NCBI GenBank assembly: GCA_030614785.1
Contig: JAUWTJ010000020.1
Location: 1-54,626, forward strand
Direction: 5' to 3'
Length of the DNA stretch: 54,626 bases
From: Alphaproteobacteria bacterium
Lineage (GTDB): Bacteria; Pseudomonadota; Alphaproteobacteria; M2410
In this document: piece by piece, positions 2,282 to 42,282 of the stretch
How positions within the stretch are numbered: the first letter of the stretch is position 1
Layout: the number at the start of each line of letters is the position of its first letter
The notes under the pieces: model-generated
Seen by the model: the letters and a program-made list of their open reading frames with translations, nothing else
What the model was told of the DNA's origin: nothing
The model's database searches: none
Position numbers and translations under genes: made by a program

Positions 2282-3121
2282 ATGAATAGTACTAAGGAAC
2301 AAACTCAAACACTGAGGGCGGAGGAGCCCGTGCACAGAGAACCGAAAATCCTCTGGCACCTCCATAGCGGCAATGGGCCGACCCTTGGGGTTGCGGTTCA
2401 TGCCGGTCATGAAATGCGCCCGGAACTCTTGCCCTGCCTTGCCATCGATGAGGTAGCACGTGTTCGAGAGGAAGATCCCTATACCGACTACTGGACTGGG
2501 GCCTGTGACAATCAGATTATCACAAGGCGATCCCGCTTCGAAGTTGACCTGAACCGTTCACGTGAATTGTCCATCTGCGTTCATCCGGAAGATTGCTGGA
2601 ATCTTGATGTCTGGAAAACCACGATCAGTCCTGAAGGGCAAAGACGGTCCTTTGCAGAGCATGATGCGTTTTACGACATGTTCGTCGGGGTGTTGCGTGA
2701 TCTGGAACAGAAGTACGGACATTTCATCGTGCTTGATATTCATTCCTACAATCACCGACGATCCGGCGCCCTTGCCCCCGCTGACGACTCCGCCCGAAAC
2801 CCGGAAATCAATCTGGGAACCGCAACCATAGACGCGGAGCGCTGGCTTCCTGTTGTCGAGCGATTCAAAGCGGATCTTGAGGCTTTCAACTTTCTCGGGC
2901 GCGCCCTTGATGTGCGCGAGAATATAAATTTCAAGGGCGGATTTCTACCCCAATTTGTCAATCGCACTTTTCCCGGAACCGGCCTGGCTATCGCTATCGA
3001 GGTCAAGAAGTTCTTCATGGATGAATGGACGGGTGTCGGCGACCCTCAGGCAATCAATGCACTTCTGGAGGCGTTTCAATCGACAATTCCCGGACTTACA
3101 GAGGCTCTGGAGAAGATATGA
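2282..3121 (+). CDS. N-formylglutamate amidohydrolase family protein
   Basis: The family hydrolyses N-formyl-glutamate to formate and glutamate in histidine degradation, using a zinc peptidase-like fold. Here VAVHAGHEMRPELL near the N-terminus, DYWTGACDNQI, RFEVDLNRSRE and FIVLDIHSYNHRR give the expected histidine, aspartate and arginine pattern. About 279 residues matches family length. No histidine-utilisation genes are nearby. Instead the stop codon overlaps the start of a DUF1704 gene (ATGA at 3118-3121), so a role on some other N-acyl or gamma-linked glutamyl substrate is more likely. That last point is inference. The start is uncertain: ATG 2282 is chosen because family homology begins around ILWHLHSGNG, but GTG codons near 2241 are in frame and possible. 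Confidence 0.85.
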   Translation: MNSTKEQTQTLRAEEPVHREPKILWHLHSGNGPTLGVAVHAGHEMRPELLPCLAIDEVARVREEDPYTDYWTGACDNQIITRRSRFEVDLNRSRELSICVHPEDCWNLDVWKTTISPEGQRRSFAEHDAFYDMFVGVLRDLEQKYGHFIVLDIHSYNHRRSGALAPADDSARNPEINLGTATIDAERWLPVVERFKADLEAFNFLGRALDVRENINFKGGFLPQFVNRTFPGTGLAIAIEVKKFFMDEWTGVGDPQAINALLEAFQSTIPGLTEALEKI

Positions 3122-5025
3122 GCAGCACCGCCACACTGCCGCTGGACCAGATCAATCTGGTCGCCAATCGCCTCCAGGGCGGCGATTCGGTGCGCCTTGA
3201 TTTACAAGAGGAAGGCCGCCTTCATATCGACAGGCCACAACCCTTCCTCTGCCTTTACCGCCAGCCGGAGGGTCGATCGGATCCAGGAACAGAGACCCTT
3301 CCCCTGAGCCAGGCGTCCTGCCTCGTAACAAAAGGCAAACAAGCCCGGGACATGTCACTGAATGAGCTTGTCGGGAGCATTTGCCGGGTCCTGACCGACG
3401 CCTTTGGCGCTGCTGTCATACTGGAAATCTGCACATCCGATGAGCCGCTGGAAAACGCCGAGAGGAAATCCGGCCCCGAGCATCCCGTCTTCCGTCTTGT
3501 TGCTCCGGTTCACAACACGCCCCATGCAACGCTCCAAACATTCCAGGCGGCAATCGCCGCCGCAGACTGGCCATGCCCGGCGCCTGTCGTCGAAATCAGC
3601 TACAGTGATCAATGGCACCCGGCCGGAGTGCCTCGTCTGTTTTCGCCCCGGGAAGAGACACCCGGGCAAATCACCTATCTCGGACTGGAAATCTCCCCCT
3701 TCTTCCGTGACCATGAAACACATGACGTTTTTCCTGAAATCCTCCGGGATGTATCCTTCTCTCTCGGCCATATCCTGAAGCAGACTTTCTATACGTTCTC
3801 TCATAAACACGCCACCTACCGGCCGGTCCACTACCACGAACTCGGTCAAACTGACCTGTCCGACAGCGTCTGGAGGGTAGACAGGGGGCTCGCAAATCTC
3901 GCAGATCGATTTGATGTCCTGCTGCAAGTCACACCGGTCAATACGGGTCGAGCATGGCACGACTTCCACCAAAATCATTTCGACAAGGCACCGGAATTTC
4001 TTTATCGCCCCATGCAACATGATCCCGGGAGGCTAAAACAGGAACTTTTTCAAATTCGCCTGCACGAAATTGAGGATCCCGCGCTGCATCACATTTTTTC
4101 CGAACGGCGCGACGAGATGGATCGCCAGATCACCCTTATGACAGACAGAGGGCACGCCCGCTTCCTGCACGGCTGTCTGCAGATTTTCGGAACTGTAGAG
4201 GAAGAGCTTCTGGATTTGGCACACGATATTCTGCAGCAGATCCCTGCCCATACAAAAGACAACCCGTCTCAAGAGATTCTGGATGCGGAAGCCTTCGCAC
4301 TCCTGGCTCAGGCAGAAATCGACCGTTACGCAGCAAGCTTTCCACTGTTTACCGCCACCGTTCAGGTCAGAGAGGATATTCCCGGTATCATGGTTTCAAA
4401 AGGTCACCTCCTGATCGGAAAGGAGGCCCGTATTGCGCGGTCTCGGGTCGAGGCGACACTGCATCACGAGATCGGCACTCACGTCGTGACATTCTACAAC
4501 GGACTGGCCCAGCCCTTCCGGCAATTACATGTCGGGCTCGCAGGGTATGAAGAACTGCAGGAAGGCCTGGCGGTGCTGGCGGAATTCCTTGTTGGCGGGC
4601 TCAGTCGATCTCGCCTGCGTCAGTTAGCCGGGCGGGTCGTTGCTGTCGATAGCGTGATCGGTGGAGCCGGGTTTATCGATACGTTTCGCATGCTTGTTGA
4701 GCACTATAACTTCTCGCAGAACGCAGCTTTTATGATGTCCATGCGGACCCATCGCGGCGGCGGCTATGTCAAGGACATGATTTACTTGCGGGGCCTGAAA
4801 AATCTCCTCGCTCATCTTCAAACCGGGGGTGACCTGGAGACCCTGTTCACCGGAAAAATCGCCCTCGGTCACGTCGACATCATGGAGGAATTGATATGGC
4901 GCAAGATTGTAACCGCTGACGTTGTCCAGCCCCGCTACCTCAAAGATCCAGAGGTGCAGCGCAGACTGGAACAAGTCAAAAACGGTCTGTCAGTCCTCGA
5001 CCTGATGTCAGGAGGCACAACATGA
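3118..5025 (+). CDS. DUF1704 / QEGLA-motif putative zinc metallopeptidase
   Basis: This 635-residue protein belongs to the bacterial 'flavohemoglobin expression-modulating QEGLA motif' group (DUF1704). The sequence shows HEIGTH at residues 450-455 and QEGLA at 481-485. This matches the HExxxH...E zinc site known from eukaryotic DUF1704 members of the MATCAP tyrosine-carboxypeptidase family, with Glu482 the presumed third ligand. No signal peptide or membrane segment is seen, so it is presumably cytoplasmic. The start at 3118 overlaps the previous stop (ATGA), and its stop overlaps the next start (ATGA at 5022-5025), so three proteins are translationally coupled. The trio suggests peptide- or tag-like chemistry: an amidohydrolase, a peptidase and an ATP-grasp ligase. 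The bacterial substrate is not established. Confidence 0.85.
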   Translation: MSSTATLPLDQINLVANRLQGGDSVRLDLQEEGRLHIDRPQPFLCLYRQPEGRSDPGTETLPLSQASCLVTKGKQARDMSLNELVGSICRVLTDAFGAAVILEICTSDEPLENAERKSGPEHPVFRLVAPVHNTPHATLQTFQAAIAAADWPCPAPVVEISYSDQWHPAGVPRLFSPREETPGQITYLGLEISPFFRDHETHDVFPEILRDVSFSLGHILKQTFYTFSHKHATYRPVHYHELGQTDLSDSVWRVDRGLANLADRFDVLLQVTPVNTGRAWHDFHQNHFDKAPEFLYRPMQHDPGRLKQELFQIRLHEIEDPALHHIFSERRDEMDRQITLMTDRGHARFLHGCLQIFGTVEEELLDLAHDILQQIPAHTKDNPSQEILDAEAFALLAQAEIDRYAASFPLFTATVQVREDIPGIMVSKGHLLIGKEARIARSRVEATLHHEIGTHVVTFYNGLAQPFRQLHVGLAGYEELQEGLAVLAEFLVGGLSRSRLRQLAGRVVAVDSVIGGAGFIDTFRMLVEHYNFSQNAAFMMSMRTHRGGGYVKDMIYLRGLKNLLAHLQTGGDLETLFTGKIALGHVDIMEELIWRKIVTADVVQPRYLKDPEVQRRLEQVKNGLSVLDLMSGGTT

Positions 5026-6068
5026 AAATCGGGTTTGTCATCAACAGGCTGGCCACCGAAAAGGTCAATTATACGACAACTCATCTGGCAGAAACAGCCG
5101 TGCGAAGGGGCCATGAAGTCTGGTACATTCCGGTCGACGCCTTCACCATTGATCCGGATGAAAGAGTTCATGCCCACGCATTCGGACCCCCGCGGGTTAA
5201 TTATCGATCTGCACGGACGTTTCTGAATGACCTTCAATCCAAAGAGTGCAGGAAAGAGCGAATTACAGTTTATGACCTCGACGTTCTGCTGCTGCGCAAC
5301 GATCCGGCAGAAGATGTCGTGACCCGTCCATGGGCACGCCTCGCCCCTCTTTATTTCGGACGACTTGCTGCGACCCACGGAGTGATCGTCCTGAACGACC
5401 CGGAGGGCCTCGGTCACGCGATTAACAAGAGCTATCTGGAACTCTTCCCGCAGTCGATACGGCCGCGCTCCCTGATCACGAGAAACCATAGCGACATTGT
5501 TCATTTCATTCACGAACAACGCGGACCTATCGTTCTTAAACCCCTGGCTGGCTCAGGGGGGCACAATGTTTTTCTGTTGGAGACAGGTAAGGAGCCCAAC
5601 CTCAACCAGATCATTGAGGCCGTTCTGAGCGAAGGCTATGGCCTTTGCCAGGAATATCTGCCGGATGCGAAGAATGGTGATACGCGCGTCTTCATGATGA
5701 ATGGCCACATCCTTGAACGTGACGGCAAGTTCGCAGCCATCCGCCGGCGCCGCCCGGGCAGCGATCTGCGCAGCAATCTGTCAATCGGCGGTTCCTCTGA
5801 ACAGGCGCAGGTAACCGAGGCCATAGAGGAAATTGCCGAAGGCGTTCGCCCTCAACTCGTTAAGGACGGCCTGTTTTTTGCGGGCCTCGACGTTATCGAA
5901 AGCAAGTTGATCGAAATCAACGTATTCAGTCCCGGCGGCCTGTTCAGTGCCTCAAGGTTCGCAGAAGTGAATTTTTTTGACGAGATGATAGACAATCTGG
6001 AGCACAAGCACGACCTGGCGAACCAGGAACCAGGCGGCTTCAACAACCGGGAGATCGCAACCCTGTAA
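5022..6068 (+). CDS. Glutathione-synthetase-like ATP-grasp ligase
   Basis: ATP-grasp enzymes join a carboxylate to an amine through an acyl-phosphate. The N-terminal domain (MKIGFVINRLATEKVNYTTT) resembles the GshB/RimK preATP-grasp fold. IVLKPLAGSGGHNVF carries the ATP-binding lysine and flexible glycine loop, CQEYLPDAKNGDTRVF is the second ATP strand, and IEINVFSPGG supplies the metal-binding Glu and Asn as in glutathione synthetases. At 348 residues it is slightly longer than GshB (about 315). It is coupled to the DUF1704 gene by ATGA. Because the window lacks a gamma-glutamylcysteine ligase and the neighbours are an amidohydrolase and a peptidase, a dedicated peptide ligase is more likely than housekeeping glutathione synthesis. 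This is inference. Confidence 0.85.
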   Translation: MKIGFVINRLATEKVNYTTTHLAETAVRRGHEVWYIPVDAFTIDPDERVHAHAFGPPRVNYRSARTFLNDLQSKECRKERITVYDLDVLLLRNDPAEDVVTRPWARLAPLYFGRLAATHGVIVLNDPEGLGHAINKSYLELFPQSIRPRSLITRNHSDIVHFIHEQRGPIVLKPLAGSGGHNVFLLETGKEPNLNQIIEAVLSEGYGLCQEYLPDAKNGDTRVFMMNGHILERDGKFAAIRRRRPGSDLRSNLSIGGSSEQAQVTEAIEEIAEGVRPQLVKDGLFFAGLDVIESKLIEINVFSPGGLFSASRFAEVNFFDEMIDNLEHKHDLANQEPGGFNNREIATL

Positions 6069-6106: not shown

Positions 6107-6499
6107 ATGATAAACATCAGCACGGACAAGCTGGAAGCGATCATCATGATGGCGCGCGAATATGACGCTTTGACTCCATCAACCGATCCGAACTCCGGCT
6201 CCAACCCCATTGATGACGGCCAGATCGACGTACTCGAGAGCGGGCAAGGGTCAAACATTGACAATGAATTGAAGAACTACATCGATGGTCTGCGGGAAGA
6301 CGAGCAACTGGATCTTGTCGCCCTGACGTGGATTGGCCGCGGGACCTATGAACCGGAAGACTTCGAAGAAGCAAAGCAAACCGCTACGGCGGAACGAACC
6401 GCGCCGACATCCGACTACCTCATGGGCATACCGCTGCTGGCAGACTACCTTGCACAGGGGCTGGCCGTTATCGATCGGATTCCGGAAGATGAGGACTGA
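6107..6499 (+). CDS. DUF3775 domain protein
   Basis: A small acidic protein of 130 residues. The central segment LDLVALTWIGRGTYEPEDFE and the end YLMGIPLLADYLAQGL are characteristic of DUF3775, a proteobacterial family of unknown function. No signal peptide, cysteine or membrane segment is present. The ATG at 6107 is preferred to the GTG at 6101 because AAGGAGG sits 5 nt before it, whereas it would overlap the GTG. It lies 38 bp after the ATP-grasp gene on the same strand and could be the last gene of that operon. I do not know its function. Confidence 0.8.
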   Translation: MINISTDKLEAIIMMAREYDALTPSTDPNSGSNPIDDGQIDVLESGQGSNIDNELKNYIDGLREDEQLDLVALTWIGRGTYEPEDFEEAKQTATAERTAPTSDYLMGIPLLADYLAQGLAVIDRIPEDED

Positions 6500-6617: not shown

Positions 6618-6821
6618 ATGTCCATGTTGAAAGTGATTGAGATTCTGGCCGAGTCTGACAAGAGCTGGGAAGATGCGGCACAGGCTGCCGTTGCCAACGC
6701 TGCGGAGACACTCCATGGCGTCAAGTCCATCTACCTCAAGGACATGGAGGCGGTCGTCAACGAGGGGAAGATCACCAAATATCGCATTAATGCCAAGATT
6801 TCTTTCTTGCTGGACGGATAG
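6618..6821 (+). CDS. Dodecin family flavin-binding protein
   Basis: Dodecins are 65-70 residue proteins that form hollow dodecamers storing or buffering flavins. This 67-residue product shows the family layout: a short strand (MLKVIEILAES), an amphipathic helix (SWEDAAQAAVANAAETL) and two strands (GVKSIYLKDMEAVV and ITKYRINAKISFLLDG). The ATG at 6618 follows AAGGGAG at good spacing. An FNR-type box lies upstream. Flavin buffering makes sense beside a locus rich in flavoproteins such as the NQR-like complex and SQR, but that link is inference. Confidence in the family is high. Confidence 0.92.
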   Translation: MSMLKVIEILAESDKSWEDAAQAAVANAAETLHGVKSIYLKDMEAVVNEGKITKYRINAKISFLLDG

Positions 6822-7023: not shown

Positions 7024-7452
7024 ATGGCAACCGTAAATCACCTCCTCAGGCAGAAAGGCCGTGAGGTCCATACGATCAGTCCCGACGATTCAGTGTTCGA
7101 TGCGATCCGTCAAATGGCCGAGAAAGACATCGGCTCCCTTGTGGTGATCGAGGACGGGCGACCGGTTGGCATTTTTACCGAACGCCACTATGCCCGGAAT
7201 GTCTTCCTGAAAGGTAAGTCATCACCAAAGACGCCGGTTCGCGATGCGATGGCAATCCGTCCAATCTTTGTTTTGCCAGAGCAGACGGTTGAAGAATGCA
7301 TGGCGGTTATGACCAGGCACCGTATTCGACATCTTCCCGTCCTCGACGGCGAGGACGTGGTTGGGATTGTCTCGATTGGCGATTTGGTTCAAAGCACTAT
7401 CGCCGACCAGAAATTCGCTATCGATCAGCTCGAACACTATATTCGCGGCTAG
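7024..7452 (+). CDS. Two-CBS-domain protein
   Basis: This 142-residue protein is almost entirely two CBS motifs: VFDAIRQMAEKDIGSLVVIE with GRPVGIFTERHYARNV in the first half, and EECMAVMTRHRIRHLPVL with GEDVVGIVSIGDLV in the second. Such stand-alone Bateman modules bind adenosine nucleotides and act as energy-state sensors for partner proteins. The start has GAGGAGATAGCCG just upstream. Its partner is unknown. Proteins of this type often sit beside universal stress proteins and Hsp20 in oxygen-limitation regulons, which fits the neighbours. A second CBS-pair gene at the end of the NQR operon (20522-20911) is related in architecture. Confidence 0.92.
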   Translation: MATVNHLLRQKGREVHTISPDDSVFDAIRQMAEKDIGSLVVIEDGRPVGIFTERHYARNVFLKGKSSPKTPVRDAMAIRPIFVLPEQTVEECMAVMTRHRIRHLPVLDGEDVVGIVSIGDLVQSTIADQKFAIDQLEHYIRG

Positions 7453-9607: not shown

Positions 9608-10105
9608 TCAGGAAGATCTCACAGAGATCTTCTGTTCCGCCGCTTTGGCTTCTTCGGACTTCGGCACGAGGATTTTAAGAACACCATCCTTGAAGGACGC
9701 GTCAATACCAGATGTATCGGCATCTTCAGGAAGCTTCAAGGTTCGTTCGAACTTCCCGAAGTGACGTTCACTCAGATAATAGTCTTTTTCCTTTTCTTCT
9801 CTTTCTTCTGTCTTTTCGCCCTTGAGCGTCAGTGTATGATCCCAAAGTGTGATGTCAAAGTCACCTTCGTGCAGACCCGGGAGTTCCGCCGTGAGTTCAT
9901 ATTCATTTTCTCGTTTGGTAAAGTCTATCGCCGGCAGCTGGTCCCCCATTATCCATCGGAAAGGCTCGAATTCAGTGACCGTGGGGCGTGGCGAAAAGTC
10001 CTCGAAGAGGTGATTGATTTCTTTATGAAGCTCCGCCAAAGGGTGTCGCACTCTGCTCTCCGGTCTTCTCATTTCCGAAAGAATCTTCTTTGTCTTACCA
10101 GTCAT
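9608..10105 (-). CDS. Hsp20/alpha-crystallin small heat shock protein
   Basis: An ATP-independent holdase of 165 residues. The alpha-crystallin domain runs from about PAIDFTKRENEYELTAELPG through DITLWDHTLTLKGEK and ERHFGKFERTLKLPEDAD to ASFKDGVLKILVPK, which includes the conserved F-x-DGVL-x-I-x-VPK end strand. The start at 10105 follows GAGGAG by about 8 nt, whereas the longer frame (to 10189) begins inside the spacer. It lies 106 bp downstream of the HPF-type gene on the same strand. It belongs to a block of stress genes that in many proteobacteria respond to low oxygen or envelope stress. Confidence 0.92.
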   Translation of the reverse strand: MTGKTKKILSEMRRPESRVRHPLAELHKEINHLFEDFSPRPTVTEFEPFRWIMGDQLPAIDFTKRENEYELTAELPGLHEGDFDITLWDHTLTLKGEKTEEREEKEKDYYLSERHFGKFERTLKLPEDADTSGIDASFKDGVLKILVPKSEEAKAAEQKISVRSS

Positions 10106-10211
10106 AATTTTTTCTCCTCGATTGGTTGGAATGGAATCAGGACAACTCCTTGAAAGACGTTCAAGCTCATGCGTTAAATCAGGCGCCAACTCTCTTCCTC
10201 ACCCCCGGACT

Positions 10212-10793
10212 TTAGCCGTCCGCATAAAGGTGATGCTTGCCGACAGGCGCCACCGAGCTTGCGTGTGGTCCTTCAGCACTGTTCAGGGGAGCCAGGGATA
10301 AACGCACCTCGTCGCCTGTCTCAAGTTTGTGGAAGGCTCCCTTCGCGACACTGTTTTCGTGAAAGTAGATCTCTTCGCCCTCTCTGGTTTCAATGAAACC
10401 ATAGCCATCTTCGCTGAAAAGCCGCAGGACCGTTCCATGAAGCGGGACTTTATGCGATTTCACATCACCTTCCAGCTTGGCGGCATAGGTCTTCAACCTC
10501 CTCTCGGCTGCCTGAAAGGCATCGCCGATCGCGTCGTAGACATTCTCATGCCCCTGGTCTTTGGGATGATCGTTAGTAACAACAATCTCCTGACCCGGCA
10601 CCCCGATGTAGATGCGCGCGTTGTAGGTCTTGCCCTTGTTCTGGCTGCTGTATCGCTGCTCAATGACGACACGGCAATTGATTATATGATGAAAAAGCCG
10701 CTCAAGCTCATCTACTTTCGAGCGGATGCGGGCCTCAACGGCCTCAGACGGATCAATATCCCTGAATGCAATTTGTAGCGGCAGTTCGGTCAT
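10212..10793 (-). CDS. HPF/RaiA ribosome-associated domain fused to a cold-shock-like domain
   Basis: Residues 1-110 resemble hibernation-promoting factor / RaiA proteins, which bind the 30S decoding region in stressed cells (ELPLQIAFRDIDPSEAVEAR, then the QAAERRLKTYAAKLEG helix). Residues 115-185 look like a cold-shock-type OB fold: HGTVLRLFSEDGYGFIETRE with the RNP-like GYGFIE, then EIYFHENSV. The 193-residue fusion is an established architecture but different from the long HPF (with its own dimerisation tail). The start has TGGAG upstream. A strong dyad lies 22-60 bp upstream of the start. It probably acts on ribosomes during the same stress that induces Hsp20 downstream. Confidence 0.88.
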   Translation of the reverse strand: MTELPLQIAFRDIDPSEAVEARIRSKVDELERLFHHIINCRVVIEQRYSSQNKGKTYNARIYIGVPGQEIVVTNDHPKDQGHENVYDAIGDAFQAAERRLKTYAAKLEGDVKSHKVPLHGTVLRLFSEDGYGFIETREGEEIYFHENSVAKGAFHKLETGDEVRLSLAPLNSAEGPHASSVAPVGKHHLYADG

Positions 10794-14073: not shown

Positions 14074-15189
14074 TCAGGCGATTGCGTGTTCCGGGGATGC
14101 GGGCGTAAGGCCCTGGGCGTCCGCGACGGCGGCGCAGGTTACCTGCCCGGCATGTACATTCAGCCCCGCCAGAAAGCCCGCATCCTCGGCCATGGCTCGC
14201 TGCCAGCCTTGATCCGCCAGTTTCAACACGTAAGGCAGAGTGGCATTGTTCAGCGCCTGGGTCGAAGTCCGGGCGACGCCGCCGGGCATGTTGGTTACGC
14301 AATAATGCACCACTCCTTCTTCCACATAATAGGGATCGGCATGGGTCGTGGGACGACTGGTTTCCAGGCATCCGCCCTGATCAATGGCCACGTCCACTAC
14401 GGCCGAACCTTGCCGCATGGCCCGAACCGTCCCACGGCTGACCACCTTCGGCGCCGCACCGCCGCGAACCAACACAGCTCCGATCACGAGATCGGCATCT
14501 ATCACTGCAGATTCCACATTCTCAGGGTTCGCCACCAGGGTGTTGATGCGACTGCCAAACAGGCGGTCCAACTCCTCCAATTTCCCGACCGAACGGTTCA
14601 GCACGGTGACCTCCGCCTTGAGCCCGACCGCGATCTCTGCGGCGTTGGCCCCGACGGTGCCGCCGCCCAGGATAACCACCTTGCCCGGCGCCGCCCCGGG
14701 AACGCCGCTCAGCAAAATGCCCGCGCCCCCGATGCTCTTTTCCAGCCCCCGGGCGCCAACCTGGATTGCCATGCGCCCCGCTACCGCGCTCATCGGCACC
14801 AGCAGAGGAATCTTTCCCTCAGTATTCAGAACGGTTTCGTAGGCAATGGCTGTTGCGCCTGATTGCATCAATGCCTGTGTTTGCTCGGGGTCCGGTGCCA
14901 GGTGCAAATAGGTAAACAACACCTGTCCCGGGCGCAGCATGTCACATTCGGCGGGTTGCGGCTCCTTCACCTTGACGATCAATTCAGCCTTGGCAAACAC
15001 CTCGGCAGCACTTGCGGCGATTGTTGCGCCAGCGGCACTATAATCATCATCTGTGAAGCCAATGCCGATGCCGGCGCCGTGTTCAACCAGAACCGAATGG
15101 CCGCGACCTGCGATTTCACGCACGCTCTGCGGCGTCAATCCGACCCGGTATTCGTGAACCTTGTTTTCTTTTGTCGTGCCCAGCAACAT
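14074..15189 (-). CDS. ald: Alanine dehydrogenase
   Basis: Catalyses L-alanine + NAD+ + H2O to pyruvate + NH4+ + NADH. Full length at 371 residues. The N-terminus GTTKENKVHEYRVGLTP and the loop IVKVKEPQPAECDMLRPGQ contain the pyruvate-binding Arg and catalytic Lys. The Rossmann motif VVILGGGTVGANAAEIA is intact, and VHYCVTNMPGGVARTSTQAL is diagnostic for Ald rather than transhydrogenase PntA. It is divergent from the NQR-like operon with 159 bp between the starts. An NADH-producing enzyme next to an NADH-consuming complex is suggestive but not proof of a link. Confidence 0.94.
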   Translation of the reverse strand: MLLGTTKENKVHEYRVGLTPQSVREIAGRGHSVLVEHGAGIGIGFTDDDYSAAGATIAASAAEVFAKAELIVKVKEPQPAECDMLRPGQVLFTYLHLAPDPEQTQALMQSGATAIAYETVLNTEGKIPLLVPMSAVAGRMAIQVGARGLEKSIGGAGILLSGVPGAAPGKVVILGGGTVGANAAEIAVGLKAEVTVLNRSVGKLEELDRLFGSRINTLVANPENVESAVIDADLVIGAVLVRGGAAPKVVSRGTVRAMRQGSAVVDVAIDQGGCLETSRPTTHADPYYVEEGVVHYCVTNMPGGVARTSTQALNNATLPYVLKLADQGWQRAMAEDAGFLAGLNVHAGQVTCAAVADAQGLTPASPEHAIA

Positions 15190-15348
15190 GGTTCGGACCT
15201 CATGATTGACGTCCCCCCGTTTGGCAATGAACAGTTAAAGCACGACCGCGTCGCGGTGTCACCCCTGACGGGCACTGGTCTTGCCAACGCGTTGGGACTA
15301 ACATCAAAGTCGGCCCTTTGCCGCCCCTTTGCAGGAGCATCCGACCCG

Positions 15349-16191
15349 ATGGAATCAAATCCCTCCCAAAACGATGTTTCCCCGATATCTGGCCCTAATA
15401 CTGGCGTCGGCGCACTACAGGATGACCTGCCCAGGGTACTGGCCCTTGTGCCACCTCTCCTCGTTCGTCTTGCTGAAGAGGGCAGCACCGGGGCCTCTGC
15501 GCGGCTGGCTCTCATGGCGCTTGCCTTTGCGACCGCGTGGGCATGGAGCGCGGTGTTTGCGAGGAAGCTGACACTGGCGCCACAAATCCACCAATTGAGC
15601 TTTGCCATGATGTTCACCCTGATGCTGCCCGCATCGGTGGGGATGGGTGGCGCCTTTTTGGCGATCAGTTTTGGATGGGTCTTGGGAGATGCGATATTGG
15701 GTGGCAAGCCCATTTTGCCGCCAGCGCTGGTGGCCCTGGCGTTTGCGATTTTCTCCTTTCCGGGAGGCGGATATGAAGCGCTGGAGCTTCTCTCCGCCCG
15801 GCCCAGCCCGATGCTGGCCATATCATGTTTGCCGGGGGCAGCATGGTTGCTATGGAAAGGACTGTTGCCATGGCGAATTGTTGCCGGTGCGGCAGCAGGC
15901 ACCGCAGCAATCGCCCTGTTGATGGCAACGCCGTCATCGCCCCTGTGGTGGGAACATTTCATCCTCGGCACATTCAGCATCGGCATTTTGTTTTTGGCGA
16001 CGTCGCCGGAAAGCGGCCCGCGTCTGCAGGGTGCGCGCTGGCTTTATGGCGCGATAGTTGGTGGGATGATTATTGTCATTCGTATCGCCAGCCCCGACCA
16101 TCCTGACGGCGTCGTGCTTGCGGTTCTGGTTGGCAGCCTGTTGGCGCCGCTTCTGGATCGCGCCGTGAGCTGGAGGACTGGACATGACTAG
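15349..16191 (+). CDS. nqrB: Shortened NqrB/RnfD-like membrane subunit lacking the FMN-threonine segment
   Basis: Normal NqrB (about 410 residues) carries covalent FMN on a threonine in an SGAT-type motif, and riboflavin near the quinone site. This protein has 280 residues. AISFGWVLGDAILGG and PPALVALAFAIFSFPGG align with the first conserved half, and WRIVAGAAAG, WWEHFILGTFSIGILFLATS and LQGARWLYGAIVGG with the second half. The stretch between, which should hold the FMN motif and the PGSIGET-like loop, is reduced to a few tens of residues with no S/T-G-A-T, and the N-terminal region is also short. ATG 15349 has GCAGGAG upstream; an open frame further upstream is only antisense to ald. The stop overlaps nqrC. 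The family call rests on alignment by eye and operon context. Confidence 0.75.
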   Translation: MESNPSQNDVSPISGPNTGVGALQDDLPRVLALVPPLLVRLAEEGSTGASARLALMALAFATAWAWSAVFARKLTLAPQIHQLSFAMMFTLMLPASVGMGGAFLAISFGWVLGDAILGGKPILPPALVALAFAIFSFPGGGYEALELLSARPSPMLAISCLPGAAWLLWKGLLPWRIVAGAAAGTAAIALLMATPSSPLWWEHFILGTFSIGILFLATSPESGPRLQGARWLYGAIVGGMIIVIRIASPDHPDGVVLAVLVGSLLAPLLDRAVSWRTGHD

Positions 16192-16924
16192 CGTCAACCC
16201 CCTCAACTGGTGGCGATCATTTTTGGCTCTGCCGAATACGCATCCACTCAAGGCCATTGGCGTTGTCTTTCTTGTGGCGCTGGTTTGCTCCTTTGCCGTG
16301 TCGCTGACGGCTGTAACCCTTAAACCATTGCAGGATGCCAACCGACTGCGCGAGAGCGCCGCCAGCCTCGTCGAGGTTTTGGAGATGTTGGGCGGCGGCA
16401 CGCCCAGAGCGCACATGGTGGATCTCGCCAGCGGAAACTATACAAAACGCGATCCTGGCACCTGGACCGAGATTGACCCCAACAACGACATCGCCGGACT
16501 GGGCCAGTTGGAGACCGTGGCCAAGGTTTATGAATTGTACGAAAATGACCGATTGAAATTGGTGATCCTGCCTGTGCGCGGGTCGGGCTACCAATCCATG
16601 TTGAAGGGGTATCTGGCTTTAAGAGACGATCTCAACACGATCGCCGCGCTCACATTCCACGAACAAGGCGAAACCCCTGGCATGGGCGCGCGGGTTGCGG
16701 AAAAAGAATGGCAAACTCTTTGGGCCGACAAGCAAGTGACCGACGAAAGCGGCGTGATCCGCATTGAGGTCGTCCGGGGCGAAGCCACTGGCGTGTACGA
16801 GGTCGATGGCATCTCCGGCGCTACCCGCACCGGATCCGGCGTTACGGATCTGGTGGTGTTCTGGCTCGGTCCCGACGGTTATGGCCCCTATCTCGAACGC
16901 CTGAAGGCGGAGGGGGCAGAATGA
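16184..16924 (+). CDS. nqrC: Na+-NQR subunit C (covalent FMN)
   Basis: A 246-residue periplasm-facing flavin subunit with one N-terminal membrane helix (about 24-44). [14 protein letters not shown] near the C-terminus holds the FMN attachment motif, with Thr214 the expected phosphoester site. [17 protein letters not shown] and [18 protein letters not shown] match the conserved core, and [13 protein letters not shown] is the typical loop. It transfers electrons between the NqrD/E iron-sulfur centre and NqrB in known complexes. It starts 8 nt inside nqrB with GGAGG upstream, and its stop overlaps nqrD (ATGA). The intact FMN site contrasts with its loss in the preceding NqrB-like protein. Confidence 0.93.
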
Positions 16925-17571
16925 GCATTAAAGACAGGCCCCCGATCGAACCCATCTTGATCACCAACCCGGTGACGGTTCATGTGCTCGGCATTTGTTC
17001 GGCACTTGCTGTGACCACCTCACTTGCCACTGCACTGGTCATGAGTGCCTCGCTGATTTTCGTTCTGAGTTTCTCCAATACGTTAATCAGCCTGATCCGC
17101 CGTCACATCCCCAACTCCGTCCGGTTGATCGTGCAGATCACCATCATTGCGTCGCTGGTCATTGTCGTTGACCAGGTCCTGCAGGCGTATTTCTTTGACA
17201 TGAGCAAACGTCTCAGCGTCTTCGTTGGCCTGATCGTGACCAACTGCATCGTGCTGGGACGGGCCGAAGCCTTCGCCATGAAAAACCCGCCCGGACCAAG
17301 CCTGCTGGATGGTATTGGCAACGGCCTGGGTTACGCCTGGATCCTGATGCTGATCGGCGCGGTGCGTGAACTGTTGGTGGCGGGCACACTGCTCGGCCGG
17401 ACCATCCTGCCTCTGGCTGATGACGGCGGCTGGTTTACACCCCTGCAATTGATGGCCCTGCCGCCTGGTGCATTCTTTCTGCTCGCAATGCTGATCTGGG
17501 CGGTGCGCTCCCTGCGACCTGAGCAACGCGAAGTGTTACCCGGCACCAGTGATGAGGAGAGTGCCTCATGA
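16921..17571 (+). CDS. nqrD: Na+-NQR subunit D
   Basis: A 216-residue integral membrane subunit with six predicted helices. Cys26 (LGICSALAV) and Cys109 ([15 protein letters not shown]) match the positions of the NqrD cysteines (29 and 112 in Vibrio cholerae) that, with NqrE, hold an intramembrane 2Fe-2S cluster. [17 protein letters not shown] and IGAVRELL are conserved. Coupled by ATGA to genes on both sides. All expected cluster ligands are present, so electron transfer across the membrane through D/E should be intact. Confidence 0.94.
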
Positions 17572-18170
17572 GTGAATTGCTGCTCAATGCTATCTTCAGC
17601 GAAAATCTGGCTCTGGCCTATTTCCTCGGCATGTGCACGTTCCTTGCCGTATCCCGGCATTTCGAAACTGCATTCGGGTTGGGTCTCGCAGTGATCGCGG
17701 TTGAAACCATCACCGTCCCCATCAACAACCTGATCTTCAACGGCCTGCTGGCCGACGGGGCGCTGGCGTGGGCTGGTCTGGGGGATGTGGATTTGGGATT
17801 TCTGACGCTGATCGCTTCCATTGGCGTAATCGCTGCTACAGTGCAAATCCTCGAAATGATACTCGATCGATTTTTCCCCGAGCTCTATCGGGCGCTTGGT
17901 ATTTTCTTGCCGCTGATCACGGTGAATTGCGCCATTCTCGGCGCCAGCCTCTTCATGGTTGAGCGGCACTATACGTTTTCTGAAAGCATCGTATACGGAT
18001 TCGGTTCAGGGCTCGGCTGGGCGCTTGCCATCTGGGCGCTGGCAGCGTTGCGCGAGCGCGTCGATGAAACTCTGGTGCCCGAGGGCCTGCGCGGGCTCGG
18101 GCTAGCCTTTATCCTGACGGGTCTGATGTCCATGGGCTTTGCCGTCTTCGGCGGGCTGGAGTTCGGGTGA
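17568..18170 (+). CDS. nqrE: Na+-NQR subunit E
   Basis: A 200-residue, six-helix membrane subunit homologous to NqrD with inverted topology. Cys23 ([10 protein letters not shown]) and Cys121 ([14 protein letters not shown]) correspond to the Fe-S ligands of Nqr[13 protein letters not shown] and [11 protein letters not shown] are conserved family segments. It starts in the nqrD stop (ATGA), and nqrF begins 7 nt after its stop. Nothing suggests decay. Confidence 0.95.
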
Positions 18171-18177
18171 GGCGACT

Positions 18178-19404
18178 ATGATCGAAATCCTTCTTGCCAG
18201 TGCTATCTTTACGGGACTGATCATGGTCCTGGCGTTGATCGTGCTGATCGCCCGCTCGGTTCTTCGAGAAAAGGGGGTCGCACGACTGACTGTGAACGGC
18301 GAGCGGGTGATTATGGCTGAGCCTGGTGAAAAGCTGCTCCACGCGCTGGATGAAGGGGGCGTCTATCTGCCGACATCGTGCGGCGGCGTCGGCACCTGCG
18401 GCCTGTGCCGGGTTCAAATTTCAGGTCCCGGCCCGGTTGATACCGTCTGGCCGATTGAGTGCGACCAGCTGGGCGAAGATGAAATTGCCAAAGGCTTCCG
18501 CCTCGCCTGCCAGACAGTGGTGCGCGGCGATCTGGATTTGACGATTTCACCGGAACTGCTTGGTGCGAAAAGCTGGCAATGCTCCGTCAGCGAAGCCCGC
18601 ACACTGGCCCCGTTGATCAAGGAAATCACACTCGATCTGCCCGAGGGGGAATGTCTCGCATTTCCAGCAGGTTGCTACGTGCTTCTGACCGCACCACCCT
18701 TCAAGTTGTCGTACTCGGACATCAAAATTGCACCCGAATATGAAGCGGACTGGAACCACATGGGTCTTCGGCAGCTTGCAGTCACAAACGACACAGAACA
18801 GACCCGCGCATATTCTCTGGTCAATCGTCCCGGCGATGCGGACAAGCTTGTCCTCAACATTCGCCTCGCCCTGCCGCCAACCGCCAGCCCGGATGCACCG
18901 CCCGGGGTGGTTTCTTCATATCTGTTTGGACTCGGCGTGGGCGACATGGTCCGGGCGTCCGGCCCGTATGGAAATTTCTTTGTGCAGGCCACAAACTGCG
19001 AAATGATTTTCATCGGCGGCGGGGTCGGCATGGCGCCGCTTTATGCTCATGTTTACGATCAGCTCGAGCGTGTGAAAACTCGGCGAACCATCAGTTACTG
19101 GTATGGCGCACGAGGCCTTGCGGACCTTTATTACGCCGATGAAATGGAAAATCTGGCGCAGGACCATGACAACTTTTCCTGGCATGTGGTACTATCGGAC
19201 CCGGCACCGGATAGGACCTGGGCGGGTGAGCGAGGATTTGTCCACGAAATCGTCTACGACAAATATCTCAGCACCCACCCGGATCCGCAAAATTGCGAGT
19301 ATTACCTGTGCGGACCGCCGCTGATGATCGAGGCCGTGCAGAGCGTGTTAGACAAACTGGGCGTGCCGCCCGCGAAAATATTCTTTGATGATTTTGGGGA
19401 CTGA
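18178..19404 (+). CDS. nqrF: Na+-NQR subunit F, NADH-oxidising flavoprotein
   Basis: A 408-residue subunit, full length. One N-terminal membrane helix (about 5-28) is followed by a ferredoxin-like domain with 2Fe-2S ligands Cys68, Cys74, Cys77 and Cys111. The FAD domain shows RAYSLVNRPGD, and the NADH domain shows FIGGGVGMAPLYAH and YYLCGPPLMIEAV, ending in IFFDDFGD as in known NqrF. It accepts hydride from NADH and passes single electrons inward. The start at 18178 is preferred to the frame opening at 18139, which lies inside nqrE. This subunit identifies the operon as NQR rather than RNF, since RNF lacks NqrF. Confidence 0.95.
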   Translation: MIEILLASAIFTGLIMVLALIVLIARSVLREKGVARLTVNGERVIMAEPGEKLLHALDEGGVYLPTSCGGVGTCGLCRVQISGPGPVDTVWPIECDQLGEDEIAKGFRLACQTVVRGDLDLTISPELLGAKSWQCSVSEARTLAPLIKEITLDLPEGECLAFPAGCYVLLTAPPFKLSYSDIKIAPEYEADWNHMGLRQLAVTNDTEQTRAYSLVNRPGDADKLVLNIRLALPPTASPDAPPGVVSSYLFGLGVGDMVRASGPYGNFFVQATNCEMIFIGGGVGMAPLYAHVYDQLERVKTRRTISYWYGARGLADLYYADEMENLAQDHDNFSWHVVLSDPAPDRTWAGERGFVHEIVYDKYLSTHPDPQNCEYYLCGPPLMIEAVQSVLDKLGVPPAKIFFDDFGD

Positions 19405-36302: not shown

Positions 36303-37790
36303 TCACAATGCGGTGAACAGGATTGGGCCGAGCGTCATGACCAAAACTGCCACGACCACAATGGCGACCACATCGAGGATTGCACCTGCCCTGATCATAT
36401 CGTGAACTTTGATGGCGCCGCTGCCAAATACGATAGCGTTGGGCGGCGTAGCGACCGGCAACATAAATCCGATGGTCGCCGCCAGCGCAACCGACATCGC
36501 AAGAAGTCCGGGATCGAACCCGAGACCAGCTGCACTTGCGCCCGCGACCGGTAGAAATATCGCCGCAACCGCCGTGTTGCTGGCGAGTTCGCCGAGGAGC
36601 ACGATGACGATAAAGATCCCCAACAAAAACAGGAATATTGGCAGAAAGGCGAGGATGGAAACCGCCCCGCCGATCCAGATTGCGAGGCCGCTTGTATTGA
36701 TAGCGTCGGCAAGCGCCAGGCCGCCTCCAAACAACAACAGGACATCCCAGCGAATTGTCTTTGCCTCTTCCCAGGATAAGAGCCGGTCGTGACCGGATCG
36801 CGTGGCCGGCATGATAAACAGCAAAAGTGCCGCTGAAATAGCAATGCCCGCGTCGCTCAGGCGCAATTGCGGGAAAAAACCCGACAGGACATCGCGGAAA
36901 ATCCACAAGAAGGCGGCAAGGCCAATGACCAGCGAGACGCGAAGTTCAGCCCGGGTGAAAGGTCCCATTTTTTCGGTTTCCCCATCCAGAAACCCCCCTT
37001 TCAGCAAATCGCGAGAGATGGAGAAACGGAAGAATACCCTTGTGATCAGTACCCAGGCCACAGGCAACAGGATGAGGACAGCAGGAACACCAATCATCAT
37101 CCACCGCCAGAATTCGATTTCAATGCCCCAGGTCTTGGCCATGAACCCTGCAAAGAGCGCATTGGGCGGCGTTCCGATCAAGGTCCCCATGCCGCCAATT
37201 GTGGCTGAATAGGCAATCGCCAACATCAACGCAGTCGAAAATTGGGCAATCTCCGACTTTTCGCTTTCATTGGCCTGCACATAAACCGCTGTGCAAATCG
37301 ATTGACCAATGGGGAGCATCATCATGGTGGTCGCAGTGTTGCTTACCCACATGCTCAGTACAGCCGTTGCGATCATTATGCTGGCAATGATGCCGGACAA
37401 ACTCGAACTCCCCATTTTGAGCAGGCCGAGCGCGATACGCTGGCTTAGATGCTGCTTCACCATGGCTTTGGCCATGAGAAACCCGCCAAGGAACAAGAAG
37501 ATTAGCGGATGGGCAAATGAGGTAGCGGTAGAGTCAACGGTCCCGATTCCAAGGGCCGGGAAAAGAACAATGGGTAGCAGTGCCGTGGCGGCAAGCGGCA
37601 CCGCTTCGGTCATCCACCACAGGGCCATGAGCAGACAGACAGCCGCGACGGCCCAGCCTTCCGGGCCAAGGCCTGTCGGTGCGGGAAGCGCCAGCATGGT
37701 GAAGAAGACAGCGGGACCGACTATCAAAGCAGCCTGCCGGATTGCCGCTTCGGGATCGATCTTCATTGCCGACCACATTTTAAAGATCAT
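36303..37790 (-). CDS. DASS/SLC13 family sodium:carboxylate symporter
   Basis: A 495-residue transporter with about 11 helices, of the divalent anion:Na+ symporter family. The two conserved SNT motifs are present: WVSNTATTMMMLPIGQS in the first half and ELASNTAVAAIFLPVAGA in the second, along with IGGMGTLIGTPPNALFAG. Known substrates are succinate, malate, fumarate, citrate or sulfate. Na+ coupling would suit an organism with an Na+-pumping complex. It is 13 bp downstream of the glutamate dehydrogenase gene on the same strand, suggesting C4/C5-acid metabolism rather than sulfate transport. Confidence 0.92.
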   Translation of the reverse strand: MIFKMWSAMKIDPEAAIRQAALIVGPAVFFTMLALPAPTGLGPEGWAVAAVCLLMALWWMTEAVPLAATALLPIVLFPALGIGTVDSTATSFAHPLIFLFLGGFLMAKAMVKQHLSQRIALGLLKMGSSSLSGIIASIMIATAVLSMWVSNTATTMMMLPIGQSICTAVYVQANESEKSEIAQFSTALMLAIAYSATIGGMGTLIGTPPNALFAGFMAKTWGIEIEFWRWMMIGVPAVLILLPVAWVLITRVFFRFSISRDLLKGGFLDGETEKMGPFTRAELRVSLVIGLAAFLWIFRDVLSGFFPQLRLSDAGIAISAALLLFIMPATRSGHDRLLSWEEAKTIRWDVLLLFGGGLALADAINTSGLAIWIGGAVSILAFLPIFLFLLGIFIVIVLLGELASNTAVAAIFLPVAGASAAGLGFDPGLLAMSVALAATIGFMLPVATPPNAIVFGSGAIKVHDMIRAGAILDVVAIVVVAVLVMTLGPILFTAL

Positions 37791-39186: not shown

Positions 39187-42100
39187 TCAGGTAGGCTGCG
39201 CCCCGTCCACACCAATCTCGTTGAGAAAGGCAAAGAATGAAGGAACAAGAAGCAGTGACGCAATCGTCGCGGTCATCAGACCGAAGACAAGACTGGCGAC
39301 CAGCGGTATCAGAAGCTGCGCCTGTGTACTTGTCTCCACAAGCAGGGGCGTAAGTCCGGCGAGCGTGGTCAAGGTCGTCAGCATGATCGGACGGAAACGT
39401 TCGCGTGCTGCTTGCCGCCCGGCATCCACCGGGCTCATGCCATTTCGCATTCCATCCTTGATGAACGTTATGAGCAGAATATTGTTGTTGACGACCACGC
39501 CGGCCAGGGTGGCAAAACCAACCAGGCTTGGCATTGTAAGATCAAGCCCCATCAACACATGCCCCCACACAACTCCGATCAGCCCCATTGGAATCGCCAG
39601 CATCACGAAGATCGGTTGGAGGTAGTTGCGGAACTGAAACGCAAGGATCAGATAGATGCCGACGATCCCGATTAACAGGTTCGTCTGCAGCGCACTTCCC
39701 GTCTCGGCAGTCTCTTTGTCCTGCCCTTGCGAGGAGAACCGTACCATCGGATATTTCTCCTTCAACTTCGGCAGTACGCGCCCCTTTAGTATTTGCATTA
39801 TTTCCCGCGCATTCGCCAGCTCAGTATCTATAGAAGCCTGGATCGTTACCGTCCGCTGGCCATTGACCCGGTGGATGCGGGCATAACCACGCTCTTCCTC
39901 GATAACAGCGACGGCACTCAAAGGTATAAGGGTTCCATCCGGACTGCGCAGTTTCATATAGCGCAATTCTTCAATACTATTGCGATCCTGGTTGGCGAGA
40001 CGAATCATAACATCATAAGCTTCTCGATCACGCCAGACCTCGATGCTGGTCTTGCCATAGAGCGCAGCACGCAGTTCATCGGCAACCGTGCGCGCTGTGA
40101 TCCCGAACACACCGGCTGAGTCCTTGAGACGAACGCGCAATTCAGGCTTGCCCGGGCGCAAATCATCGGAAATATCCTCTATCCCCTTAAGGCTTGCCAG
40201 GAAATCTTGTATCTCGAAGGAGACCTTCTCGAGCTGTTCAAGATTGCTGCCATGAATACGAAGATCAATCGCCTTGCCGGCAACGCCGCGCTCTTTATCC
40301 GTGAATTTCAATGCGACCACATCGGGAAGATCGCCGGTTAGTTCCCGCCAACGTGTCAATATCTCATCGACCGTGCTTTGACGCTCTCCCGCTGGCAGCA
40401 GATCAGCGCTGACGGTTGCGATATGAGGTCCGCTCTCATAAGCATCAACGTTGGTATTGAAGAGTACAGAGATGTTTTTTATTAACCGCCGACCGCCCTT
40501 CTCCCGGGCCGAGAATTCGTCATCGAGGCGCTTGAGCATGCCTGTAATGTGGGAGACTGTCTCCTCTGTTCTCGACAGAGGTGTGCCTTGCGGAAGAATA
40601 ATACGTGCCTGAATGACATCGCTTTCGAGATTGGGAAAGGCCTGATACTTCAAAACCCCTGCAGGAATGAGTGCGAACGACACCAATGCCAGGAACATCA
40701 TAATCCCAATGGACAGGCCGGGCTTTCGCGTGGCCCGCACCACCACAGGCATAAAGATGCCTTCGCGCAATCCCTCAAACCTTTTTTCGAATCCAGACTG
40801 GAGCTTTGATCGACTGTTCGCATCTGTTTTCTTAAGGGAATGCGCAAGATGTGAAGGAAGGATGAGGAAAGCCTCAACGAGGCTGACTATCAGGGTGATC
40901 AACAAGACCGCCGGAAGAAATTTCAGGACGGCACCCATTTTTCCGGTGAGAAATGCGAGAGGTCCAATAATCATGGCCGTCGTCAGGAAGGATGAAATGA
41001 CACCAGGCATAACCTGGCGCGTGCCGTCAACGGCCGCATCCAGCGCCTTCTTCCCTTTTTCCAGCTGCGCCGCCACATTCTCGGAAATTACGATGGCATC
41101 GTCCATAAGAAGTCCTATGGCAACCAAGAGCCCGACAAGGGTCATCATATTCAGGCTGTAGCCGAGAGTGTGCATGGCGAAGACTGCGCCAAGGAAAGAA
41201 ACCGGCAACCCCATGGTCACCCAAAAGCTAAACCGGAGTGAGAAGAACAGCCACATAGTAAGAAAGACCAAAACCAGACCCTGAAGGCCATTACTCAAGA
41301 GAATGCGCAACCGATCGCGAATATTACTGGTCACGTCTGAACTGATTTCCAATTGCACACCGCGCGGCGCCATGGCCTGCTCTCGAGCCAGGTTCTCATC
41401 AATCGCCTCCATCACTCTCAAACTGTCCTGGTCATCGGTTTTGGAGATCTCCAACAAGGCTGCACGCCGGCCGTTGAACAGAACCTTGTCCTCGGGCCTG
41501 TCGAAGACTGTACGGATGTCGGCCAAATCGCCCAGGCGCACCTGCCCGCCGGTCTGGCCGGAAACGATTATGAGATCAGCAAGTTCTCCTGATGTGCGGC
41601 GCTGTTCGCTGAAGCGGACGACGAAGTCGCCGCTGCCCGTTTCCATGATGCCGGCAGGAAGGTCCACGCTTTGCCGTTCCACCGCCGTCCTCACGTCTGA
41701 AATGCTGATGCCATAGCGCTGCAAGACGCCAGCAGGTAACTCGATGGCAAAATCCTGATCGGAAAACCCCTGTATCCGGACCTGAGCGATACGATGGTCG
41801 CGCTTCAGGCGCACCTTGACGGCTTCGGCATATGCCTTGAGCCCGCGAGGAGACATATCGCCAGTGATGGCGATGCTGGCAACCGAGGCGATCCGCTCCA
41901 ACTTGATGACGGTCGGTTTCTCAACCTTGTCCGGAAACGCTGTAATGGCTTCGACCCGGGACTTCACATCATTGAAGAACTCCTCAATGTCCGCGCTTTC
42001 GCGCATCTGAGCCGTCGCGATAGCAATGTTTTCACGAGCGTCGCAACGGATCTCGACCAGGCCTGCGATGGCATCCAAAGCATCCTCAAGCCTCTGGCAG

Positions 42101-42282
42101 ACCGCCTCCTCGACTTCGCCCGGAGTGGCGCCGGGATAGCTGGCGCGGATCTCCACCTCGGTTGGCGGAACCACCGGGAAAGTGTCACGCTGCAATTTTG
42201 GAAGGGCGGAAAGCCCGAGAATCATGATGGCGACCATAAATACGTTGGCCGCTGTCGGATGGGTGCCAAAGTAGCGGATCAA
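39187..42282 (-). CDS. RND efflux permease (HAE/AcrB family), system 1
   Basis: A 1031-residue inner-membrane proton antiporter with twelve predicted helices in two repeats, each with a large periplasmic loop. The TM4 region LVAIGLLMDDAIVISENVAA carries the paired aspartates of proton relay, and the N-terminus MIRYFGTHPTAANVFMVAIM is a normal start. ATFPVVPPTEVEIRASYPGA-like and GATPGEVEEAVCQRLEDAL segments define the HAE family. Its start overlaps the adaptor stop (ATGA at 42279-42282). No outer-membrane channel gene is present. Substrates cannot be predicted. Confidence 0.94.
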   Translation of the reverse strand: MIRYFGTHPTAANVFMVAIMILGLSALPKLQRDTFPVVPPTEVEIRASYPGATPGEVEEAVCQRLEDALDAIAGLVEIRCDARENIAIATAQMRESADIEEFFNDVKSRVEAITAFPDKVEKPTVIKLERIASVASIAITGDMSPRGLKAYAEAVKVRLKRDHRIAQVRIQGFSDQDFAIELPAGVLQRYGISISDVRTAVERQSVDLPAGIMETGSGDFVVRFSEQRRTSGELADLIIVSGQTGGQVRLGDLADIRTVFDRPEDKVLFNGRRAALLEISKTDDQDSLRVMEAIDENLAREQAMAPRGVQLEISSDVTSNIRDRLRILLSNGLQGLVLVFLTMWLFFSLRFSFWVTMGLPVSFLGAVFAMHTLGYSLNMMTLVGLLVAIGLLMDDAIVISENVAAQLEKGKKALDAAVDGTRQVMPGVISSFLTTAMIIGPLAFLTGKMGAVLKFLPAVLLITLIVSLVEAFLILPSHLAHSLKKTDANSRSKLQSGFEKRFEGLREGIFMPVVVRATRKPGLSIGIMMFLALVSFALIPAGVLKYQAFPNLESDVIQARIILPQGTPLSRTEETVSHITGMLKRLDDEFSAREKGGRRLIKNISVLFNTNVDAYESGPHIATVSADLLPAGERQSTVDEILTRWRELTGDLPDVVALKFTDKERGVAGKAIDLRIHGSNLEQLEKVSFEIQDFLASLKGIEDISDDLRPGKPELRVRLKDSAGVFGITARTVADELRAALYGKTSIEVWRDREAYDVMIRLANQDRNSIEELRYMKLRSPDGTLIPLSAVAVIEEERGYARIHRVNGQRTVTIQASIDTELANAREIMQILKGRVLPKLKEKYPMVRFSSQGQDKETAETGSALQTNLLIGIVGIYLILAFQFRNYLQPIFVMLAIPMGLIGVVWGHVLMGLDLTMPSLVGFATLAGVVVNNNILLITFIKDGMRNGMSPVDAGRQAARERFRPIMLTTLTTLAGLTPLLVETSTQAQLLIPLVASLVFGLMTATIASLLLVPSFFAFLNEIGVDGAQPT

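Follow-up and report, generated by a model that had tools for sequence, protein, structure and literature searches.

The window analyzed here comprises positions 1-54,626 of contig JAUWTJ010000020.1, and its operon of interest spans about 2330-6068 on the + strand, where an amidohydrolase (AH), a metallopeptidase (MAT) and an ATP-grasp ligase (LIG) follow one another head to tail. A first-pass annotation had described three coupled genes at this position and likened them to an add-and-remove cycle for an amino acid tag. The coupling is evident: the ATG of MAT (3118) overlaps the stop codon of AH and the ATG of LIG (5022) overlaps that of MAT, by 4 bases each (ATGA), and a Shine-Dalgarno-like GGAG/GGAGG precedes both starts. 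The AH start annotated before, ATG 2282, is probably wrong. Among the candidates, which also include TTG 2219, GTG 2330 is to be preferred because a GGAGGAG motif is located just 5' of it and because an AH ortholog (locus L058) begins at about the same place.

AH (2330..3121) is a stand-alone protein of the N-formylglutamate amidohydrolase (FGase) family, as previously annotated, and scores 62.6 bits against PF05013 (cut-off 28.9). Its orthologs keep the catalytic-type motifs VHAGH, RSRFEVDLNR, DIHSYN and IEVKK, with H40, E63, E64, D152, H154 and E240 being invariant. AH thus shares its family with the HutG-type N-formylglutamate amidohydrolases, but is found outside any histidine-degradation context.

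The two-domain peptidase MAT

MAT (3118..5025) is a 635-amino acid, two-domain metallopeptidase that scores 291 bits against the MATCAP family PF08014 (cut-off 27) and for which we obtained an AlphaFold2 model with a pLDDT of 92.9. As Foldseek returned no match below 0.001 for the full two-domain model, the catalytic core (3862..5022) was modeled by itself (pLDDT 95.3) and compared with MATCAP, a comparison proposed by the first-pass annotation. Human MATCAP (7z5g/7z6s) was the sole match among solved structures below 0.001 (E 3.6e-9, TM up to 0.71), and the next matches were M32 carboxypeptidases. The HEIGTH and QEGLA motifs of this DUF1704 peptidase are as reported before. H450, E451 and H455 form the HExxxH metal site (4465..4482) and are invariant across 69 MAT sequences, as are E482 of the QEGLA motif (4558..4572), which corresponds to TMCP1 E316 and is predicted to be the third metal ligand, and R543, G548, K552 and D553 of an R-x2-RGGG-x2-KD motif (4744..4776). 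In an alignment of MAT to 7z5g, human MATCAP shares the R, R, G and KD of the latter motif. E281 of TMCP1, the counterpart of MAT E451, is required for activity (PMC10499314). According to our model the MAT core is a MATCAP-fold metallopeptidase, with predicted carboxypeptidase activity.

MAT and the eukaryotic MATCAP/TMCP proteins (KIAA0895L, KIAA0895) thus have in common the core fold, the HExxxH site, a third glutamate ligand and the R..KD motif. They differ in that sequence identity is 21%, that tubulin is absent on the bacterial side, and that MAT bears an additional, decayed amidohydrolase domain and is encoded in a ligase operon. An earlier match to eukaryotic tyrosine carboxypeptidases is therefore upheld for the fold. 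Support for the tyrosine-tag analogy is partial, and there is none for a tyrosine tag in particular. Human TMCP/MATCAP cannot strictly be called a tyrosine carboxypeptidase, since TMCP1 acted similarly on ends in Y, A, E or G and is a deglutamylase as well (PMC10499314); HEIGTH and QEGLA hence do not imply such a tag. The best family model for the core is TIGR02421 (COG3930/DUF1704), the 'flavohemoglobin expression-modulating QEGLA motif protein', whose name says nothing biochemical about function; at 328.4 bits MAT stays under its curated equivalog cut-off of 338.65. A separate bacterial MATCAP family of about 430 amino acids (L006-L035) has higher Pfam scores and mostly occurs without AH or LIG nearby; in one of its loci (L025), the MAT gene is divergent from a RimK-like ligase.

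The N-terminal domain of MAT (3151..3852), overlooked in the first-pass annotation, is newly recognized here as a relative of AH. Its approximately 245 residues match the stand-alone AH profile (hhalign 93.9%, E 1.6e-7) and the amidohydrolase domain of fused proteins (96.5%, E 7.9e-10), with controls at 0.1-0.2%, and Foldseek finds a weak match to 2q7s. Such fusions occur in a sister group (L041-L044 and L048), where AH and MAT form one open reading frame (ORF) that LIG overlaps or abuts from upstream, and where the amidohydrolase domain retains the FGase motifs. At least one of these motifs is left in only 3 of 58 window-type N-terminal domains. Given this homology and the loss of the motifs from most sequences, the domain is by sequence a pseudo-amidohydrolase, a decayed copy of the AH domain. 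It may persist in a structural or binding role, with the live AH copy staying in the operon.

LIG and the glutathione synthetases

LIG (5022..6068) is a GshB-type ATP-grasp ligase with scores of 156 bits for GSH-S_ATP, 42 bits for GSH-S_N and 65.6 bits for RimK, and its closest solved relative is Escherichia coli GshB (1gsa, E 1.7e-34). The ATP-grasp assignment made previously was thus right, but the proposed kinship with tubulin-tyrosine ligases (TTL) appears to hold at the superfamily level only, since LIG is GshB-type and a search with the TTL family PF03133 gave no match at E 0.001. LIG has the two domains typical of GshB along with the ATP-grasp motifs, yet differs from GshB by insertions and by a conserved C-terminal tail (6039..6065) with the final residues NREIATL. 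Most LIG proteins have a similar ..N..(M/L)ATL ending; 26 of 68 end in ATL, and most others in close variants.

Several observations set LIG apart from a plain glutathione synthetase, the case that the first-pass annotation had named as refuting its proposal. LIG misses the glutathione synthase equivalog cut-offs (TIGR01380, 184.5 versus 299.05; PRK05246, 195.1 versus 272) and that of the RimK family model TIGR00768 (89.6 versus 143.4), and is just below the cut-off of 408 for PRK12458, 'glutathione synthetase' (404.8 bits). The host genome encodes gshA and, on C13, a separate gshB with a stronger score (238 bits). Among the GshB-like matches in each of 14 carrier genomes belonging to other phyla, the strongest is the LIG of the operon (169-187 bits; present as tandem copies in one genome), and the rest reach at most 75 bits. 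No gshA match (PF04262 or PF04107) was found in 6 of these 14 genomes; some are draft metagenome-assembled genomes, but the carriers without gshA also include isolates of Litoribacter, Parapedobacter and Algoriphagus. In these genomes, LIG most likely acts on something other than glutathione precursors. This probable separation of LIG from plain glutathione synthetase is new. A third GSH-S_ATP paralog of the host, distinct from gshB and LIG, is located on contig C144 (L004; 603-1640), with neither MAT nor AH in the 3 kb of sequence covered.

Tandem arrays of two or three LIG copies are present in certain Planctomycetes and elsewhere (L061, L080, L089, L092, L105), which suggests successive or alternative ligations. 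In L080 and L105, MAT is tandemly repeated as well.

Conservation and genomic neighborhood of the operon

Of 398 sampled genomes belonging to the phylum of the window, 47 encode PF08014 proteins, and scanning 84,980 species genomes yielded at least 552 relatives. The best 80 represent Alpha-, Gamma- and Deltaproteobacteria, Campylobacterota, Planctomycetes, Acidobacteria, Bacteroidetes, Gemmatimonadota, Poribacteria, Calditrichaeota, Kiritimatiellae and others. Fifty-one loci were complete, with at least 2.5 kb on each side. AH is present in 45 of them, always co-directional, and LIG in 50 (49 co-directional); the order AH-MAT-LIG is kept in 44 of the 45 complete loci having all three genes. 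The set thus occurs far beyond chance, and the gene set is recurrent in bacteria, as the first-pass annotation had stated. When neighbors were clustered, with clusters c6 and c9 excluded as ORFs antisense to LIG and AH, only LIG and AH appeared in most loci, the next cluster reaching 9 of 81. The three proteins diverge in a correlated manner across loci (Mantel r 0.66, 0.74 and 0.64 for their distances; p 0.0005, the floor of 2000 permutations), which fits joint inheritance as a unit, with shared species history contributing. No paper came to light that connects MATCAP to DUF1704, or that treats QEGLA together with FGase and ATP-grasp proteins. A 2009 survey of ATP-grasp amidoligases reportedly covers related neighborhoods, and we thus make no judgment on priority for the gene set.

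Where AH is not detected near MAT, another hydrolase may take its place. In four loci, an AstE/AspA-type deacylase gene is located next to LIG or directly 5' of MAT: L103, L124 and L127 from Algoriphagus/Litoribacter, and L130 from Magnetococcales. As the three Bacteroidetes cases are related, these represent about two independent replacement events. AH is also absent from L090, L091 and L094, where no AstE/AspA gene was seen either. This stand-in, which had not been noted before our analysis, suggests that the AH step consists in taking an acyl or amino acid group off an amino acid.

A peptide precursor, as in ribosomally synthesized and modified peptides, was searched for in all six frames within 500 bp either side of the core. 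No small ORF was conserved, the search returning only unannotated pieces of AH or LIG and genus-level matches, and this candidate was rejected. A sigma-54 promoter was found 5' of AH in 6 of 50 loci (0.4 in shuffled sequences), several of which have a divergent sigma-54 activator; TGGCA-N7-TGC elements occur 5' of AH in L061, L067 and L119, and among the eight loci of cluster c7, the activator gene is located divergently just 5' of AH in L061, L067, L085 and L119. Because no such promoter was found upstream of AH in the window, we do not generalize sigma-54 control.

An unbiased Pfam count was made on 417 neighboring ORFs from 67 dereplicated loci, with flanks totaling 606 kb. The MscS channel domain (PF00924, 14 members) was at or near the top of every batch. 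MscS is the commonest neighbor in sequence searches, occurring in 14 of the 67 loci across many phyla, an enrichment of about 26-fold over a background of 0.88 per Mb in 60 genomes of the phylum of the window (0.53 expected in 606 kb). The Poisson P is about 1e-15 (3e-10 if the highest density of any sampled genome is taken as background) and remains significant once some 25,000 families are corrected for. The MscS gene of L061 and of L119 follows LIG co-directionally with a small overlap. Further recurrent neighbors are CorA, MgtE, TrkA-C, Na/H exchanger, KCC-like permease and Castor/Pollux channel genes, in addition to sigma-54 activators. This osmotic and ion-transport neighborhood was newly noted in our analysis.

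In two Magnetococcales-type loci (L128, L049), MAT-LIG runs straight into genes for a retropepsin, a seven-transmembrane (7TM) transglutaminase-like protein and an ATP-grasp protein. The rlo operon of Pseudomonas aeruginosa has the same three parts and is required for hypo-osmotic tolerance; RloA cuts polyglutamate in vitro, and the effect of losing the RloA proteases is suppressed when RloB or RloC is lost too (PMC12239564). RloABC thus pairs opposing ATP-grasp and peptidase activities tied to osmotic tolerance, as we propose for AH, MAT and LIG, but uses an aspartic retropepsin, a transmembrane transglutaminase-like protein and another ATP-grasp class, is partly periplasmic, and its proteins are non-homologous to MAT or AH. 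None of the rlo gene types (retropepsin, 7TM transglutaminase-like, ATPgrasp_ST) is found within the three-gene operon of the window; they are neighbors in L128 and L049. Photobacterium damselae expresses a QEGLA-family gene 27.5-fold more strongly at 1% NaCl than at 3% (PMC10308900).

In the window itself, a DUF3775 gene (6107-6499) starts 38 bases past LIG and is possibly co-transcribed; we did not see DUF3775 recur beside the operon in other loci. It is followed by dodecin (6618-6821) and a CBS-domain protein (7024-7452). Farther on, an HSP20 chaperone lies beside a protein with S30EA ribosome-hibernation and cold-shock domains in a stress cluster (9608-10189 and 10212-10793, -). Other regions of the window hold an NQR2/RnfD-type subunit with an NADH-oxidoreductase-type protein, probably a Na+-translocating Nqr/Rnf cluster (14863-19404, +), a sodium:sulfate symporter (36303-37790, -) and two AcrB-type RND efflux pumps facing apart (39187-42282, -, and 45220-48426, +).

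A proposed make-and-unmake cycle

The presence of one ligase and two hydrolases, together with MscS and ion transporters nearby, led us to a proposal for which we find belief and doubt evenly balanced: AH, MAT and LIG would form an ATP-driven cycle that makes and unmakes an acidic amino acid amide or short peptide for osmotic or ion homeostasis. LIG, as a GshB-type ATP-grasp enzyme, would form an amide bond at the carboxylate of an acidic amino acid derivative or short peptide. MAT, with the fold and active site of a MATCAP-type metallocarboxypeptidase, would strip the C-terminal residue again, and AH, which has the family motifs of an amidohydrolase, would take off an N-acyl or N-terminal part. 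AH was once fused to MAT, and the fused copy decayed in the group of the window, where a stand-alone live copy remains. Judging by the gene neighborhood, the cycle most likely acts in osmotic and ion homeostasis and could adjust, for example, the level of a peptide-like solute or an acidic amino acid chain when turgor changes. We infer a cytoplasmic location of the three proteins, their substrates, the directions of their reactions and their osmotic role. The cycle is backed by gene order and strand, co-divergence, the AH-MAT fusions beside LIG, the decayed domain, the MATCAP fold and the AstE/AspA swaps, and its osmotic part by the MscS enrichment, the ion-transporter neighbors, the rlo-like genes downstream and the NaCl response in P. 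damselae. The add-and-remove cycle suggested by the first-pass annotation is thus retained with respect to one ligase facing two hydrolases, but is weakened as a tag cycle by the lack of a conserved small precursor ORF beside the operon and by the osmotic neighborhood.

A number of points weigh against this proposal. Substrate and activities are deduced from fold, homology and neighborhood. We found no MscS gene in the window, and the osmotic link for this organism thus rests on orthologs; next to the operon are genes for DUF3775, dodecin and a CBS protein, and beyond them HSP20 and one ribosome-hibernation-type gene, which indicate general stress. The neighborhood could reflect shared stress islands instead of shared function. 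The MscS background comes from the phylum of the window only, whereas the loci span many phyla. The P. damselae gene is assigned at the family level, and much of the transcriptome in that experiment shifts as well.

It is possible, if rather doubtful, that LIG instead adds and MAT removes a reversible amino acid tag on a protein C terminus or acidic tail, much as tubulin is modified by TTL/TTLL and MATCAP/TMCP and ribosomal protein S6 by RimK/RimB. The MATCAP fold speaks for this, as its eukaryotic relatives act on protein tails, deglutamylation included (PMC10499314), as does the RimK-like ligase adjoining MAT in L025. Rlo-like genes follow the operon in L128 and L049, and the idea gains weight because Rlo proteases, with RloA cleaving polyglutamate in vitro (PMC12239564), and MATCAP relatives both act on glutamate-rich sequences. 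However, LIG belongs to a small-molecule ligase family and has no TTL match, the AH slot is occupied by N-acyl-amino acid deacylase families, and neither a dedicated substrate protein nor a small ORF is conserved nearby. Improbable, in our view, is a purely degradative or salvage module, in which AH and MAT hydrolyze N-acyl or γ-glutamyl peptides and LIG recycles the product. Hydrolases do outnumber the ligase 2:1, and the FGase and AstE/AspA families are generally catabolic, but no transporter or amino acid catabolic gene recurs across phyla, the tandem LIG copies in L061, L080, L089 and L092 fit synthesis better, and the neighboring genes relate to osmotic control, not to catabolism.

A pathway to a secondary metabolite or a graspetide-like ribosomal peptide would agree with the common natural-product pairing of ATP-grasp enzymes and peptidases; as we saw no conservation of a precursor ORF, a transporter or a tailoring enzyme, and as a near-invariant three-gene core is spread over many phyla, we consider it very unlikely. 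We give hardly any credence to LIG being a plain glutathione synthetase, with hydrolases that are unrelated or act on glutathione conjugates. E. coli GshB is its best solved relative and the PRK12458 score falls just short, but the equivalog cut-offs are missed by a wide margin, the host has gshA and a stronger gshB, and of the 14 carriers, 6 have no gshA match and none has another strong GshB match outside the operon.

MATCAP-type peptidases were characterized in eukaryotes only in 2022-2023, and in the literature searched we found no role for their bacterial relatives. Beyond the make-and-unmake cycle, a more daring and on balance unlikely idea is that the operon represents a bacterial counterpart of the tubulin-code machinery, in which an ATP-grasp ligase, a MATCAP-type peptidase and an M14-like (FGase) hydrolase would write and erase acidic chains on a cytoplasmic protein or peptide and so tune turgor, in parallel to Rlo. 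Family names do not justify reading these proteins as 'tyrosine carboxypeptidase' or 'glutathione synthetase'. A three-gene core present over many phyla, linked to osmotic and ion homeostasis and marked by a decayed enzyme domain, provides a concrete condition, an osmotic shift, and assays with which the substrate may be found.

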